This document shows, piece by piece, positions 10,943 to 16,699 of a stretch of DNA of 32,346 nt. The translations under genes and the position numbers were made by a program. Source of the DNA: a bacterium (GTDB lineage Bacteria > Actinomycetota > UBA4738 > HRBIN12); NCBI GenBank assembly GCA_023251895.1, contig JAHEXX010000011.1:1-32346 (forward strand), given 5' to 3'. Within the stretch, counting starts at the first letter, position 1. Every line of letters begins with the position of its first letter. The notes under the pieces are model-generated. The model searched no databases. It was not told where the DNA came from and saw only the letters and a list, made by a program, of their open reading frames with translations.

Positions 10943-11716
10943 TCAGGCGATGACCAGGCCCCGGCGCCGACGGATCCGCCGGTCGATGACGCCGAAGACG
11001 AACAGGTCGACGGCCACTCCGATCAGCATGATCACCGCCAGGACGGCGAGCAGGAGCGCGAGGTCCGACCCCGATCGGACGAGCAGGTGGCCCAGCCCCA
11101 CGGCATTGGCCGCGGAAACGACGAGTTCGCCCGCCATCAGCGCGCGCCAGGCGAACCCCCAGGCCTGCTGCAGGCCGGCCACGTAGCCGGGAAGCGCGGC
11201 CGGGAAGATGATGCTGCCGTACAGGGCCCACCCCTTCGCGCCGAGCGTCCGCCCTGCCTGCTGGAGCAGCGGCGGCACCTGCCGGAGGCTGGCCATCGTG
11301 GCAAGCGTCACGGAGGGGAAGGCGCCGACGAAAGCCACGAAGACCACCGCCCGCTCCGTTGCGCCGAACCACACGATGGCCAGCGGGATCCAGGCGGGGG
11401 ACGGGATCACCTGGAGGGCCACGATCAGCTTGCCAAAGCCCCGGCGTGCGAAGTCCGACGCAGCAAGCCCCATCCCGATCAGCGTCCCTACCAGGATGGC
11501 GGCGACGAACGAGAAGACCAGCCGGATCAGCGTCTTGAGGGTCGCTTCGGGGATCGTGCCGTCGGCGATCTTGTCGCGAAGCGCACGCCAGGCCGATAGC
11601 GGCGAAGGAAGGATGGAGGGCCAGATCGCCGCCACCACGATCCACAGGAGAAGGGCCGTCCCGATGGCGGTGAGGACGGGCCCGGCCTCGTCAAGTGCCC
11701 GTCTCGCGCGCGACAA
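10943..11716 (-). CDS. ABC transporter permease, nitrate/sulfonate/taurine type (SsuC/TauC-like)
   Basis: Multi-TM; IPSPAWIPLAIVWFG and LGAKGWALYGSIIFPAALPGYVAGLQQAWGFAWRALMAGE. Confidence 0.9.
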   Translation of the reverse strand: MSRARRALDEAGPVLTAIGTALLLWIVVAAIWPSILPSPLSAWRALRDKIADGTIPEATLKTLIRLVFSFVAAILVGTLIGMGLAASDFARRGFGKLIVALQVIPSPAWIPLAIVWFGATERAVVFVAFVGAFPSVTLATMASLRQVPPLLQQAGRTLGAKGWALYGSIIFPAALPGYVAGLQQAWGFAWRALMAGELVVSAANAVGLGHLLVRSGSDLALLLAVLAVIMLIGVAVDLFVFGVIDRRIRRRRGLVIA

Positions 11717-12536
11717 CCTTGTCCACCTCCCTCACCAGGTACTCGTGGATGTCCGAGGCGACCTTCGTCAGCAGCACGTCGTCCAGTCGTCGCGGACGCG
11801 ACGCGTAGATCCGCTGTTCCTCGAGCAGCCGCCCCGGAGGCGCCGACATCACCAGCACTCGGTCGGCGAGGAACGTCGCTTCCCGTACGTTGTGGGTGAC
11901 GAAGACGAACGTCTTGCGGGTCTCGCCTTCCGACCAGACGCGCTCGAGCTCGCGCTGGAGCACCTCCCGGGCCTGCGCGTCGAGGGCACCGAAGGGCTCA
12001 TCGGCGAGCAGGACGTCCGGGTCGCACGCGAGTGCCCGGGCCAGGGCCGCCCGCTGCCGCATGCCCGCGGACAGCTCGTGCGGCTGGGCGTTCGCGAAGC
12101 GCCCCATGTTCACCTTCTCCAGCCAGTCCATCGCCCGCTCGGTCCGCTCGCCGTGAGGCACGCCGATCAGCCTCAACGCGAACTCCACGTTCCCCACGAC
12201 CGAGAGCCACGGGAACAGCGCGGGCTCCTGGAACAGCACGGCCCGGTCGGGGCCGGGGCCCGGGATGGGCGCTCCGTCCAGGAGGACCTCGCCGCTGGTG
12301 GGCCGTTCCAGTCCGGCCAGGATGTTGAGGATCGTCGTCTTCCCGCAGCCGGTCGGGCCGAGCAGGCACAGGAACTCCCCCGAGTGGACGTCGAACGACA
12401 CGTCGTCGAGGGCCACCATGCGCTCGCCGGCGGCGCTCCTATAGGCCTTCACAACCTGACGCAGGGCCAGCTTGGGCTGCTCGCCCTGGGCACGGAGCGG
12501 TGTCGGTTCGACGGGCCTTCGGAGTCCTCCACTCAT
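11691..12536 (-). CDS. ABC transporter ATP-binding protein, nitrate/sulfonate/taurine type (SsuB/TauB-like)
   Basis: Walker A GPTGCGKTT, Q-loop FQEPALFPWL, signature LSAGMRQR, Walker B VLLADEPFGALD. Confidence 0.93.
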   Translation of the reverse strand: MSGGLRRPVEPTPLRAQGEQPKLALRQVVKAYRSAAGERMVALDDVSFDVHSGEFLCLLGPTGCGKTTILNILAGLERPTSGEVLLDGAPIPGPGPDRAVLFQEPALFPWLSVVGNVEFALRLIGVPHGERTERAMDWLEKVNMGRFANAQPHELSAGMRQRAALARALACDPDVLLADEPFGALDAQAREVLQRELERVWSEGETRKTFVFVTHNVREATFLADRVLVMSAPPGRLLEEQRIYASRPRRLDDVLLTKVASDIHEYLVREVDKVVARETGT

Positions 12537-12715
12537 CGCAGCCGGAACTTCTCCGCCATCTCGATCTGTACGACCTTGCCGTCCTGGATCACCAAGACGA
12601 CGGTGCCGAACTGAACCCGTCGCACGATCGCGGCGACCTTGGCCAGCACGGTCTGCTCTTCGTCGGTGAGGTCGGACAGGTCGCCGGGTCCTTGAGGGAG
12701 CCGCTCGTTCGCCAC
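12533..12715 (-). CDS. small DUF2292 / YezD-like protein, 60 aa
   Basis: VANERLPQGPGDLSDLTDEEQTVLAKVAAIVRRVQFGTVVLVIQDGKVVQIEMAEKFRLR; AAGGA SD upstream; ATGA overlap with the ABC ATPase start. Confidence 0.85.
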   Translation of the reverse strand: MANERLPQGPGDLSDLTDEEQTVLAKVAAIVRRVQFGTVVLVIQDGKVVQIEMAEKFRLR

Positions 12716-12792
12716 GGACTGTTCCTTCTCGGGCTGTCGGAGATGGCGCGTACCTCCGCCGCGCCCGCTCCCCGCCATCCTAGCGGCGGGAC

Positions 12793-13890
12793 CTACTCCG
12801 AACCAGGCGGGACGAAGACCGGCACCCGCTCCCGCTCCGCCTCGACCGTGGTGATCGCGGCCTTCTCGGCAGCCTTGAGGTGCTTCCTCGTGCTGAAGAA
12901 GTAGTGGAGGGCCGCCCCGAACCCCACGCCGACGAAGGCACCGTAGGCCTGCCACCTGACCGAGGCCTTCTTGGTGAGCGCGGTGGTCACCCAGTGGTGG
13001 TCGGGGCGGCTGTGCGCGTCGATCGCCCCCCAGATGGGCAATCCGACGACGACGGTCGCGAGGAGAACCCAGAACAGGGTCTCGGTGGGCATACCCACCA
13101 GCTTCAGGCCCGAGGCCATGAGCACGTACACCAGGCAGACCCGGATGAACGCGTCGGGCGCTCGCGACGACAGGTGCGCACCCACGTACACGCCCGGGAC
13201 GGCGCCGATCAGGACCGACTCGGTCAGGCCGAGCTGGAAGTCGCCGTACGCGAGGTGGGCCAGGGCGGCGGCGGCGACCAGGGGGATGGCCTGCACCAGA
13301 TCGGTGCCGACGAGGTTCCGGCCGTGGATCCGGGGGTAGAGCATCATCAGCAGGATGATGATCAGCGAGCCCGAGCCCACCGAGGTCATCCCGACCATCA
13401 AGCCGCCGGCCGCTCCGATGGCCAAGGTCGCCACCTTCTTGACCTCCAGCCGCGCATCCGGGTCGTCCGGCTCGATCAGGCCATCGCGGACCCTGGCGGT
13501 GTGCCGATGGTGCAGATAGGCCTTCAGGGCGATCGCGCTCGCTGCGATCAGTAGGAACGCACCGAGGATCGCTTTCAAGCGCACCTGCACCTGGTCCGGG
13601 TCGCCCAGTGCCCGCAAGACGAATACCCCGGCGAAGGCGGTGGGGATGGAACCGACGGAAAGCCATCGCACCAGATCCCAGTTGACGGTGCCCCGTCGCA
13701 TGTGAACGGCGCCCCCGACCGGCTTCATCACGAGGGCGGCCACCAGGTCGCTGGACACGGCCGCGAGTGGCTCCACGTGGAACAGCAGGACGAGCATGGG
13801 CGTCATGAGGGCGCCGCCGCCCATGCCGGTGAGCCCGACGGTGAAGCCCGCACCGATCGAGGCCAGCGCCACCAGCCAATCGACGTGCAA
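12793..13890 (-). CDS. TauE/SafE (TSUP) family sulfite/organosulfur exporter
   Basis: GFTVGLTGMGGGALMTPML repeat motif, multi-TM; TTG 13890 has SD GAAGGGA; TTG 13908 is the longer alternative. Confidence 0.88.
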   Translation of the reverse strand: MHVDWLVALASIGAGFTVGLTGMGGGALMTPMLVLLFHVEPLAAVSSDLVAALVMKPVGGAVHMRRGTVNWDLVRWLSVGSIPTAFAGVFVLRALGDPDQVQVRLKAILGAFLLIAASAIALKAYLHHRHTARVRDGLIEPDDPDARLEVKKVATLAIGAAGGLMVGMTSVGSGSLIIILLMMLYPRIHGRNLVGTDLVQAIPLVAAAALAHLAYGDFQLGLTESVLIGAVPGVYVGAHLSSRAPDAFIRVCLVYVLMASGLKLVGMPTETLFWVLLATVVVGLPIWGAIDAHSRPDHHWVTTALTKKASVRWQAYGAFVGVGFGAALHYFFSTRKHLKAAEKAAITTVEAERERVPVFVPPGSE

Positions 13891-13911
13891 TCCGGTTCCC
13901 TTCGGCAATGG

Positions 13912-14103: not shown

Positions 14104-14511
14104 ATGGCCGACACGGACACACTCTCGTTGGTCCTGTTCTCGGGAACCGACGACAAGCTGAATGCGGCCGCCGTTCTCACGGCCGGAGGGGCCGCCATGG
14201 GCCGCAGGGTCAACATCTTCCTGCAGTACTGGGCCCTGGACGCGTTCCGGACGGACCGGATCCATAAGGACCACGGCGTGGCCCCGGAGGCCGGTCCGGA
14301 GGGGCACGGGGTGCTGCAGCGGCACGGAGGACAGCACTGGAGCGAGATTCTCGGCCAGGCCAAGGGGATCGGCGAGGTGGGCATCCACGCCTGTTCGCTG
14401 TCGATGGAGATGTTCGGCATCACCAAGGACGATCTCGATCCTTTGGTCGACGACGTGGAGGGGGTGGCGTCCTTCTTCCTGGAGGTCGACGGCCCCGTGA
14501 CCTTCATCTAG
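14104..14511 (+). CDS. DsrE/DsrF/DrsH-like family protein
   Basis: LSLVLFSGTDDKLNAAAVLTAGGAAMGRRVNIFLQYWAL...IHACSLSMEMFGI; single conserved-position Cys. Confidence 0.88.
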   Translation: MADTDTLSLVLFSGTDDKLNAAAVLTAGGAAMGRRVNIFLQYWALDAFRTDRIHKDHGVAPEAGPEGHGVLQRHGGQHWSEILGQAKGIGEVGIHACSLSMEMFGITKDDLDPLVDDVEGVASFFLEVDGPVTFI

Positions 14512-14523
14512 GGGGTGTGGACG

Positions 14524-14763
14524 ATGACGACGACTGAGGTTTCCCGCTCGATCGACGCGCGGGGCATGCCCTGCCCGGGGCCACTGATGACGCTGATCGG
14601 CGCCATCCGGGAGGGGCAGGTGGGTGACGTGATCGAGGTGCTGTCGAGCGACGAGGGCTCGCGGACCGACATCCCGGCATGGATCAACAAGGCCGCCCAC
14701 GAGCTGGTAGAGGTCGTTCAGGAGGATGGCTTCGCGCGGTTCGTGGTCCGCAAGGCCCGGTGA
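14524..14763 (+). CDS. TusA-like sulfurtransferase
   Basis: SIDARGMPCPGPLMTLIGAIREGQVGDVIEVLSSDEGSRTDIPAWINKAAHELVEV; CPxP motif. Confidence 0.92.
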   Translation: MTTTEVSRSIDARGMPCPGPLMTLIGAIREGQVGDVIEVLSSDEGSRTDIPAWINKAAHELVEVVQEDGFARFVVRKAR

Positions 14764-14769
14764 TCGACG

Positions 14770-15936
14770 ATGCCGGCTCGGATCGTCGTCCTGGGGGGCG
14801 GGGTCGGCGGGACCCTGGCGGCGAACCTGCTGTCCAAGGAACTCGGCCGCGACGCAAGGATCACGGTGGTGGATCCCACGGGGATGCACGTCTATCAGCC
14901 GGGCTACCTCTACGTCGCCTTGGGTCAGGCCAACGGACGCTGGCTCGCCCGGGATGAACGCACCCTGCTGCGCAGGGACGTGCAGCTCGCCGTAGAGCGG
15001 GCTGTCCGCATCCATCCCGAAGCGGGAACCGTTCAGCTCGAGCGGGGTGGCAACCTCGAGTGGGACTTCCTGGTGATCGCCACCGGCGCCCGCCTGGTCC
15101 CGGATCAGATCCCGGGATTGGTGGAGGGGGCGTACGAGTTCTACTCGCTCGAGGGGGCGCAGCGTCTCCGCGAGGAGCTGCGGCGGTTCAGGGGTGGCCG
15201 CATCCACATCGGCGTATCGGGCATCCCCTACAAGTGTCCGCCGGCGCCGGTCGAGTTCACGCTGATGCTGGAGGAGTACCTGCGAGAGCGGGGCATCCGC
15301 GATCGGAGCCAGGTGACTCTGCTGTCGCCGCTGAACCGGGCCTTCACGATCGAGTCGGCCTCCAAGCTTGTGCAACCGATCATGGAGGAGCGCGGCATCG
15401 GCCTCACGACGTTCTTCAACGTCGAGGAGATCGATCCGTCGGCCCGCGTCATCACGTCGCTGGAGGGCGAGAAGGTCGAGTCCGACCTGATGATCATCGT
15501 TCCGCCGCACCGCGGCCAGACGGTGGTCACCGATTCGGGTCTCGGCGACGTCTCCGGATGGCTCCCCACCGACAAGCTCTCGTTGCAGGTGGAGGGCTAC
15601 GAGCGGGTGTTCGCGATCGGAGACGCAACCAACCTGCCCATCTCCAAGAGCGGGTCCACGGCGCACTTCGAGGCGCCCGTGGTGGCGAACCGGATCGCGT
15701 CGCTGATACGGGGCACGGCCCCCAAGGCGAACTACCCGGGCCAGGTCATGTGCTTCCTGGAGACGGGGAACGGGAAGGCGACGGCGCTGCGGTTCGACTA
15801 CGAGCATCCGCCCGTACCGCCGCACCCCGCCCGCATCTGGCACCTGGCCAAATGGATGTTCAACCGCCTGTACTGGGAGACGGTACCCAAGGGCCGGATC
15901 CCAGAATGGGCCCCGATGGTGAGGAGCAAGAGATGA
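14770..15936 (+). CDS. FAD-dependent oxidoreductase, sulfide:quinone oxidoreductase-like
   Basis: IVVLGGGVGGTLAANLL dinucleotide fold, VIATGARLVPDQIPG, Cys in YKCPPAPVE and VMCFLETG, VFAIGDATNLP. Confidence 0.9.
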   Translation: MPARIVVLGGGVGGTLAANLLSKELGRDARITVVDPTGMHVYQPGYLYVALGQANGRWLARDERTLLRRDVQLAVERAVRIHPEAGTVQLERGGNLEWDFLVIATGARLVPDQIPGLVEGAYEFYSLEGAQRLREELRRFRGGRIHIGVSGIPYKCPPAPVEFTLMLEEYLRERGIRDRSQVTLLSPLNRAFTIESASKLVQPIMEERGIGLTTFFNVEEIDPSARVITSLEGEKVESDLMIIVPPHRGQTVVTDSGLGDVSGWLPTDKLSLQVEGYERVFAIGDATNLPISKSGSTAHFEAPVVANRIASLIRGTAPKANYPGQVMCFLETGNGKATALRFDYEHPPVPPHPARIWHLAKWMFNRLYWETVPKGRIPEWAPMVRSKR

Positions 15937-16166
15937 GCACGCAGATCGCGAAGACGCTGGACCTGAAGGGGCTGAGCTGTCCGTTGCCGATCGTGAAGAC
16001 GGCGCAGGCCATCAAGCAGCTGCAGCCAGGTGAGCTGATCGAGGCGCTGGCGACCGATCCAGGATCGGTGCCGGACTTCAACGCCTGGTCCCGGAGCACC
16101 GGCCATGAGCTGGTGGAACAGACCGAAGAGGGCGGTGTCTACCGCTTCGTAATCAGGAGGAGATGA
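15933..16166 (+). CDS. TusA-like sulfurtransferase
   Basis: TLDLKGLSCPLPIVKTAQAIKQLQPGELIEALATDPGSVPDFNAWSRSTGHELVEQ; ATGA overlaps at both ends. Confidence 0.93.
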   Translation: MSTQIAKTLDLKGLSCPLPIVKTAQAIKQLQPGELIEALATDPGSVPDFNAWSRSTGHELVEQTEEGGVYRFVIRRR

Positions 16167-16699
16167 GTGCGATGGCGGTACAGGAAGCCGAGCTCGAGGC
16201 GCCGGTCCGCGAGCACGAGGAGCACGCCCACGACAAGCTGGTGATCATCGCGTGGAGCGGTGACCTCGACAAGGTGTGGCCGCAGATGATCCTCGCGACG
16301 ACCGGGGCGGCCATGGGCATGCAGACCACGATCTTCTTCACGTTCTGGGGGTTGTTCTCGCTGGTGAAGGAGAACGTCCGGATCACCGGTGACAACTGGA
16401 TGCAGAAGATGGTCGCGATGATGGATCACCCCGGCATGGAGCACCTGAAGCTCGGGAAGATGAACTTCGCCGGCGCCGGACCCAGGATGATGCTGAAACT
16501 GGGCAAGGATCACAAGGTCGCCAGCCCCGGCGAGCTGCTCGAGATGGCCCGCGAGCTGGGCGTCCGGTTCGTTCCCTGCCAGATGACGATGGACCTCCTG
16601 GGGCTCTCGCGGGAGGACATGATCGATGGACTGGACGAGCCTGCCGGTGCCACCACGATGCTGCTCGAGGCCCAGGACGCCGTCACGCTGTTCATCTGA
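16163..16699 (+). CDS. DsrE/DsrF/DrsH-like family protein
   Basis: KLVIIAWSGDLDKVWPQMILATTGAAMGMQTTIFFTFWGLF...VPCQMTMDLLGLSREDM; ATGA overlap with tusA-like gene. Confidence 0.92.
   Translation: MSAMAVQEAELEAPVREHEEHAHDKLVIIAWSGDLDKVWPQMILATTGAAMGMQTTIFFTFWGLFSLVKENVRITGDNWMQKMVAMMDHPGMEHLKLGKMNFAGAGPRMMLKLGKDHKVASPGELLEMARELGVRFVPCQMTMDLLGLSREDMIDGLDEPAGATTMLLEAQDAVTLFI

Follow-up and report, generated by a model that had tools for sequence, protein, structure and literature searches.

A five-gene operon in which a predicted type III sulfide:quinone oxidoreductase (SQR) is encoded between two TusA-like and two DsrE-like sulfur carriers was identified in the window, by which we mean the whole stretch of 32,346 nucleotides analysed here, and the same five-gene set is kept in uncultured Actinomycetota, Dormibacterota, and Chloroflexota. 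We consider it probable that this operon oxidises sulfide and passes the resulting sulfur along in sulfane form, bound to proteins, with the carriers arranged in two units. In the searchable open literature, an operon with two carrier pairs, the two layouts in which it occurs, and the DsrE1 subtype coupled to it (all described below) appear to be undescribed. The operon and its neighbour consist of the following features:

12793..13908, minus strand: TauE/SafE permease, operon neighbour with diverging transcription (Pfam TauE, 2e-43)
14104..14511, plus strand: dsrE1, 135 aa, single Cys97 (ACSLSM), 'QYWAL' subtype (Pfam DrsE_2, 3.6e-14)
14524..14763, plus strand: tusA1, TusA-like carrier, CPGP, Cys17 (Pfam TusA, 9.5e-22)
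14770..15936, plus strand: sqr, 388 aa, predicted flavoprotein of the type III sulfide:quinone oxidoreductase family, Cys156/Cys328 (NCBIfam NF049943, 6.3e-107)
15933..16166, plus strand: tusA2, TusA-like carrier, CPLP, Cys16 (Pfam TusA, 3.9e-25)
16163..16699, plus strand: dsrE2, DsrE2-like, 178 aa, single Cys139 (PCQMTMD) (Pfam DrsE_2, 1.5e-45)

The five genes lie on one strand at 14104-16699 in the order DsrE1-TusA1-SQR-TusA2-DsrE2, all of them at the positions given in a preceding sequence-only reading, and their Pfam families are, in order, DrsE_2, TusA, Pyr_redox_2/FCSD_central, TusA, and DrsE_2. The successive gaps are 12, 6, -4, and -4 bp. Of the several ATGA overlaps described previously, those at the SQR/TusA2 and TusA2/DsrE2 junctions are present and no others, and whether the TusA2/DsrE2 genes overlap hinges on where DsrE2 starts, since an alternative ATG at 16172, which agrees with the relatives, gives a protein of 175 aa and a gap of 5 bp. 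A search of the region for sigma-70-like promoters and terminator patterns gave neither. Across the five proteins (857 residues) there are six cysteines only, of which the flavoprotein has two and every carrier has one (DsrE1 C97, TusA1 C17, SQR C156 and C328, TusA2 C16, DsrE2 C139), in agreement with the earlier description of one cysteine in each DsrE and a CPxP motif in each TusA. Each of the six is a predicted sulfur-handling site and is invariant in the relatives.

Within the order of the window genome (27 genomes, its own included), nine other genomes carry a complete locus, all with the same five-gene order and with SQR identities of 73-79%, and in a tenth the five genes are split over two contigs, a recurrence that exceeds chance. 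A strong DsrE1 match (at least 200 bits) was found in 12 of the 397 genomes sampled from the phylum, 11 of the 12 belonging to this order. A scan of genome contigs returned 534 SQR relatives, the best 80 of which were examined together with the window (81 loci). Among these 81 best loci, the three-gene core dsrE1-tusA1-sqr occurs in 26, spread over several phyla of bacteria and also archaea; the mirror form, with tusA2-dsrE2 after sqr, occurs in 14 (Actinomycetota, Chloroflexota, and Dormibacterota); an inserted form, dsrE1-tusA2-dsrE2-tusA1-sqr, occurs in 27, all Chloroflexota; and tusA1-sqr alone occurs in nine, some cut by a contig end, besides a few truncated or odd loci. The pair order tusA2-dsrE2 is constant in every five-gene locus, while its position relative to sqr differs. 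The five-gene order is therefore not unique to one genome, which the earlier reading had listed as an outcome that would speak against it.

The flavoprotein matched the type III SQR model NF049943 at 6.3e-107 and 357.9 bits, under the 525-bit cut-off of the model, which was made for a selenoprotein subtype; the type III label comes from this match. Its best structure matches were chains of human SQOR (E about 1e-40), followed by solved structures of archaeal and bacterial SQR and of flavocytochrome c sulfide dehydrogenase, whereas NADH dehydrogenase-like structures were far weaker, the best being YjlD (about 1e-8). The protein is accordingly predicted to belong to the type III SQR family, and the possibility raised at the outset, that it groups with non-sulfur NADH dehydrogenases, is not borne out. 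C156 and C328 align with the redox cysteines of SQOR, and both are kept in 81/81 loci (the best 80 of 534 and the window); because the search pattern for the relatives already contained C156, only C328 is an independent test. The predicted structure of SQR, made from 10 close orthologues, has low confidence (pLDDT 54), including the C-terminal membrane-helix/quinone region, and was set aside.

Both TusAs are assigned to the TusA family by their domain and CPxP cysteine, but they lie outside the NCBI equivalog for the sulfurtransferase TusA, against which they scored 43 and 54 bits (cut-off 78). The CPGP of TusA1 is present in 78 of 79 relatives among the best loci, the lone exception being cut by a contig end, and the CP[MLI]P of TusA2 in 42/42. 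DsrE1 and DsrE2 each have a DrsE_2 domain with a conserved active-site cysteine (68/68 relatives for DsrE1; the PCQM of DsrE2 in 43/43), and with one cysteine each they lack the Cys-X7-Cys hallmark of DsrE3A (PMC4175335). DsrE2 matched the SulfCarrDsrE2 model NF047629 at 6.2e-25 and 88 bits, below its cut-off of 210, and DsrE1 gave no match. The AlphaFold model of DsrE1 (pLDDT 91) has as its best PDB fold match 2qs7 (SSO1126, DsrE2B; TM 0.87, 39% identity). According to a previous study, SSO1126 (2QS7) is the Sulfolobus counterpart of DsrE2B, and DsrE2B was unreactive with all sulfur compounds tested (PMC4175335), so a carrier role of DsrE1 cannot be taken for granted.

By their trees, the two TusAs and the two DsrEs are ancient paralogues. 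Within the window, TusA1 and TusA2 share 39% identity and DsrE1 and DsrE2 share 29%; TusA2 forms one clade over both five-gene layouts (SH-aLRT 97). An additional tusA-dsrE2 pair is present on another contig of the window genome and also in genomes of the order without the SQR operon, and TusA2 and DsrE2 group with the TusA (support 99) and DsrE (100/100) of this further pair. Recent tandem duplication, considered as an origin of the pairs and as a point on which the earlier proposal could fail, was thus ruled out by the TusA and DsrE trees. Instead, dsrE1-tusA1-sqr and tusA2-dsrE2 were probably separate, older cassettes that became joined, with the pair added to the core, and the mirror look would have arisen because the two cassettes, each in its usual order, came to adjoin. 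A test of DsrE2 as one clade, bearing on single versus double recruitment of tusA2-dsrE2, gave a p-AU of 0.18. We also observed that the separate tusA-dsrE2 pair adjoins a nickel-superoxide-dismutase-like gene (HCDLPCGVYDP) on contig C50 of the window genome (L052, 6923-8827) and in L139 and L141, with a signal-peptidase-like gene also beside it; the arrangement recurs in several of the order's genomes, some of which lack the SQR operon.

DsrE1 varies with the added pair. Its 'QYWAL' segment is present in 41/41 five-gene loci vs 2/26 three-gene loci, the remaining 24 of the 26 having 'TFWGL' or similar (best 80 of 534 and the window). In the DsrE1 tree both five-gene layouts fall together (100/100), and a grouping of the mirror form with the three-gene Actinomycetota is rejected (p-AU 0.0009), whereas in the SQR tree the mirror form joins the three-gene Actinomycetota (99/98), the opposite grouping having a borderline p-AU of 0.04; the branches are long, the groups were defined once a first tree had been seen, and convergence could mimic this discordance. 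The branching of the TusA1 tree gave no resolution. Either block transfer of dsrE1-tusA2-dsrE2 or adaptation of DsrE1 to new partners would tie DsrE1 to TusA2-DsrE2, and together the subtype and the discordance with SQR suggest that DsrE1 is a partner of TusA2-DsrE2, not the mirror mate of TusA1. A strict rule that this DsrE1 subtype needs TusA2-DsrE2 is refuted by L072 and L083, where the subtype occurs although their operons contain no tusA2-dsrE2; the L072 genome gave no strong DsrE2 match, and the L083 genome gave a moderate one on another contig.

As to the neighbourhood, ArsR-type regulators are located beside 44 of the 81 loci (best 80 of 534 and the window), the window's not being among them. 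Two that were examined matched the ArsR/SmtB metalloregulator subfamily, with the BigR match below cut-off, and in most of the flanking regulators a single cysteine is conserved close to the C-terminus, unlike known persulfide sensors with two cysteines. Occasional neighbours are OsmC, a class III aminotransferase, a tyrosine phenol-lyase-like enzyme (Chloroflexus), and a sulfhydrogenase-like NiFe hydrogenase (L056); in Chloroflexus L076, L079, L080, and L081, the gene after TusA1-SQR encodes a tyrosine phenol-lyase/tryptophanase-like enzyme, possibly a source of sulfide from cysteine. TauE, an OscA-like small protein, and an ABC permease were rejected as operon members (0 of about 98 related loci match), as was an ABC ATPase (scattered matches only). 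At 10943-12745 of the window, a taurine/nitrate-type ABC ATPase and permease and a DUF2292/OscA-like sulfur-starvation protein, adjoining TauE, possibly form a sulfonate uptake block.

Several gene groups elsewhere contain related proteins. A second cluster in L105 (9601-13124, Chloroflexota) comprises DsrE1-like, small DsrE, TusA, FlpD/MvhD-like, and HdrA-like genes, so that a relative of DsrE1 is also linked to an Hdr-type complex. On Rhodococcus jostii RHA1 plasmid pRHL3 (L260), a DsrE-TusA pair immediately precedes genes for a 4Fe-4S protein and a molybdopterin oxidoreductase, with an ArsR regulator and MBL-fold genes nearby, and on Halopiger xanaduensis plasmid pHALXA02 (L259) a haloarchaeal TusA and an SQR-like oxidoreductase are followed by a DUF1641 protein, possibly another flavoprotein partner. 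About half of the genomes of the order, not the window's, have a gene for a rhodanese domain that is interrupted by a single in-frame TGA, suggesting that the rhodanese contains selenocysteine (for example G004:C47:9801-10079, G006:C53:2811-3083, G008:C26:7763-8035, and G012:C121:6924-7196).

Among known systems, Methylacidiphilum fumariolicum SolV has a type III SQR adjoining TusA and DsrE2 (MFUM_v2_0219-0221), and this operon was up 1.7-1.8-fold in sulfide-adapted cells, which form elemental sulfur (PMC10205796). It differs from the window in having one TusA and one DsrE, with sqr listed first and no second pair; by this analogy, which likens descriptions rather than sequences, the window operon would be an enlarged form of a smaller, sulfide-induced operon. 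The cst operon of Staphylococcus aureus and the yrk/sqr cluster of Bacillus licheniformis also combine SQR with TusA-/DsrE-type carriers and TauE (PMC9918477, PMC5480029), but they have rhodanese domains, a persulfide dioxygenase, and a CstR-type repressor. The window operon lacks all three (the first two by Pfam), and its neighbouring TauE is not conserved. In Metallosphaera, dsrE3A-dsrE2B-tusA likewise combines two DsrE with TusA, thiosulfonate group transfer from DsrE3A to TusA has been shown, and a further DsrE (DsrE4) is encoded downstream of SQR; unlike the window genes, this cluster is associated with dihydrolipoamide dehydrogenase and with a complex of the Hdr-like kind, and DsrE3A has two cysteines vs one in DsrE1 (PMC4175335). 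The SQR of Acidianus was reported as type V (PMC8551704). The (rhd-)tusA-dsrE2 cassette of sulfur oxidisers shares with the window the order tusA then dsrE2 and a conserved cysteine in each, but the window has no attached rhodanese, and neither DsrC nor a sulfur-oxidising Hdr cluster was found in its genome.

The earlier reading noted that the window lacks dsrAB, sox, and hdr genes, and the search for a further route of the sulfur widens this in part to the genome. DsrC was found in 0/27 genomes of the order, with E. coli positive as the control. HdrB-type (CCG) matches occur in 27/27, and three places inspected in the window genome were rejected as sulfur-oxidising Hdr, as they look like lactate-utilisation LutA, glycolate-oxidase GlcF, and a membrane oxidoreductase by sequence and neighbours; no sulfur-oxidising Hdr cluster was seen there, nor, by motif, a clear persulfide dioxygenase among its metallo-hydrolases. 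The SoxY search matched none of the control genomes and has no bearing on Sox presence. Since the window genome is 94% complete, these absences are provisional; they leave storage or export of sulfur, biosynthesis, and re-reduction as candidate fates.

For the operon itself we infer substrate, direction of transfer, and partner pairing as follows. The type III SQR, at the membrane surface, would pass electrons from H2S through FAD and Cys156/Cys328 to the quinone pool, leaving a persulfide. TusA1, the most constant SQR neighbour among the carriers, would be the likely first acceptor, and DsrE1, TusA2, and DsrE2 would form a second relay unit that may hold the sulfur or pass it to an acceptor encoded outside the operon. 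The most likely purpose would be removal of sulfide with a gain of electrons, the product being handled by protein carriers.

The original proposal of two carrier pairs for one oxidoreductase holds in so far as the pairs are distinct ancient paralogues retained with SQR, which would also suit an arrangement with DsrE1-TusA1 as input and TusA2-DsrE2 as output, two independent pairs mirroring each other in function. Such pairing is nevertheless improbable, because tusA2-dsrE2 sits between dsrE1 and tusA1 in the 27 inserted loci and DsrE1 covaries with TusA2-DsrE2, not with SQR. The self-containment that was also proposed is not supported: the search gave no further step of sulfane-sulfur oxidation, and elsewhere a core having a single TusA and a single DsrE occurs by itself (PMC10205796).

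Slightly better placed, though still unlikely, is a role in which SQR-made sulfane sulfur mainly supplies Fe-S clusters, thio-modified tRNA, and the molybdenum cofactor, with detoxification or energy secondary. In E. coli, TusA takes part in thiolating tRNA and in making the molybdenum cofactor, as PMC4175335 states, no terminal sulfur-oxidation pathway was found in the window genome, and a rhodanese-type gene, read from sequence, adjoins SUF-like genes elsewhere in it; against this role, the related operon is sulfide-induced (PMC10205796), and the genome already has the other tusA-dsrE2 pair, also found in relatives without the operon. We give least credence to a reverse or cycling flow, in which polysulfide or sulfane sulfur is re-reduced, for example by a sulfhydrogenase-type hydrogenase, and the carriers act as a sulfur buffer: Methylacidiphilum cells do turn polysulfide or sulfur back into H2S, using H2 or methanol (PMC10205796), and a sulfhydrogenase-related NiFe hydrogenase lies upstream of the L056 locus, L062 having a comparable run of genes, but such neighbours occur in few loci and are absent from the window.

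Sulfide oxidation with transfer to protein carriers, which we prefer to these alternatives, might be extended further. As a tentative possibility, tusA2-dsrE2 captured DsrE1, the three proteins becoming a new relay that feeds a sulfur acceptor of its own, and TusA1-SQR continued as the donor. If so, a two-stage, protein-only sulfane-sulfur chain would lie behind SQR, with rhodanese and persulfide dioxygenase not needed in the operon, and the relay would have moved between SQR backgrounds as a block.

The acceptor of the persulfide after SQR is an unclear point in many bacteria and archaea, and here SQR is genetically linked to small carriers. The two layouts allow a clean test of the direct acceptor of SQR and of the contribution of the second pair. 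The operon also flags a capacity for sulfide oxidation in lineages of Actinomycetota, Dormibacterota, and Chloroflexota known mostly from metagenomes.
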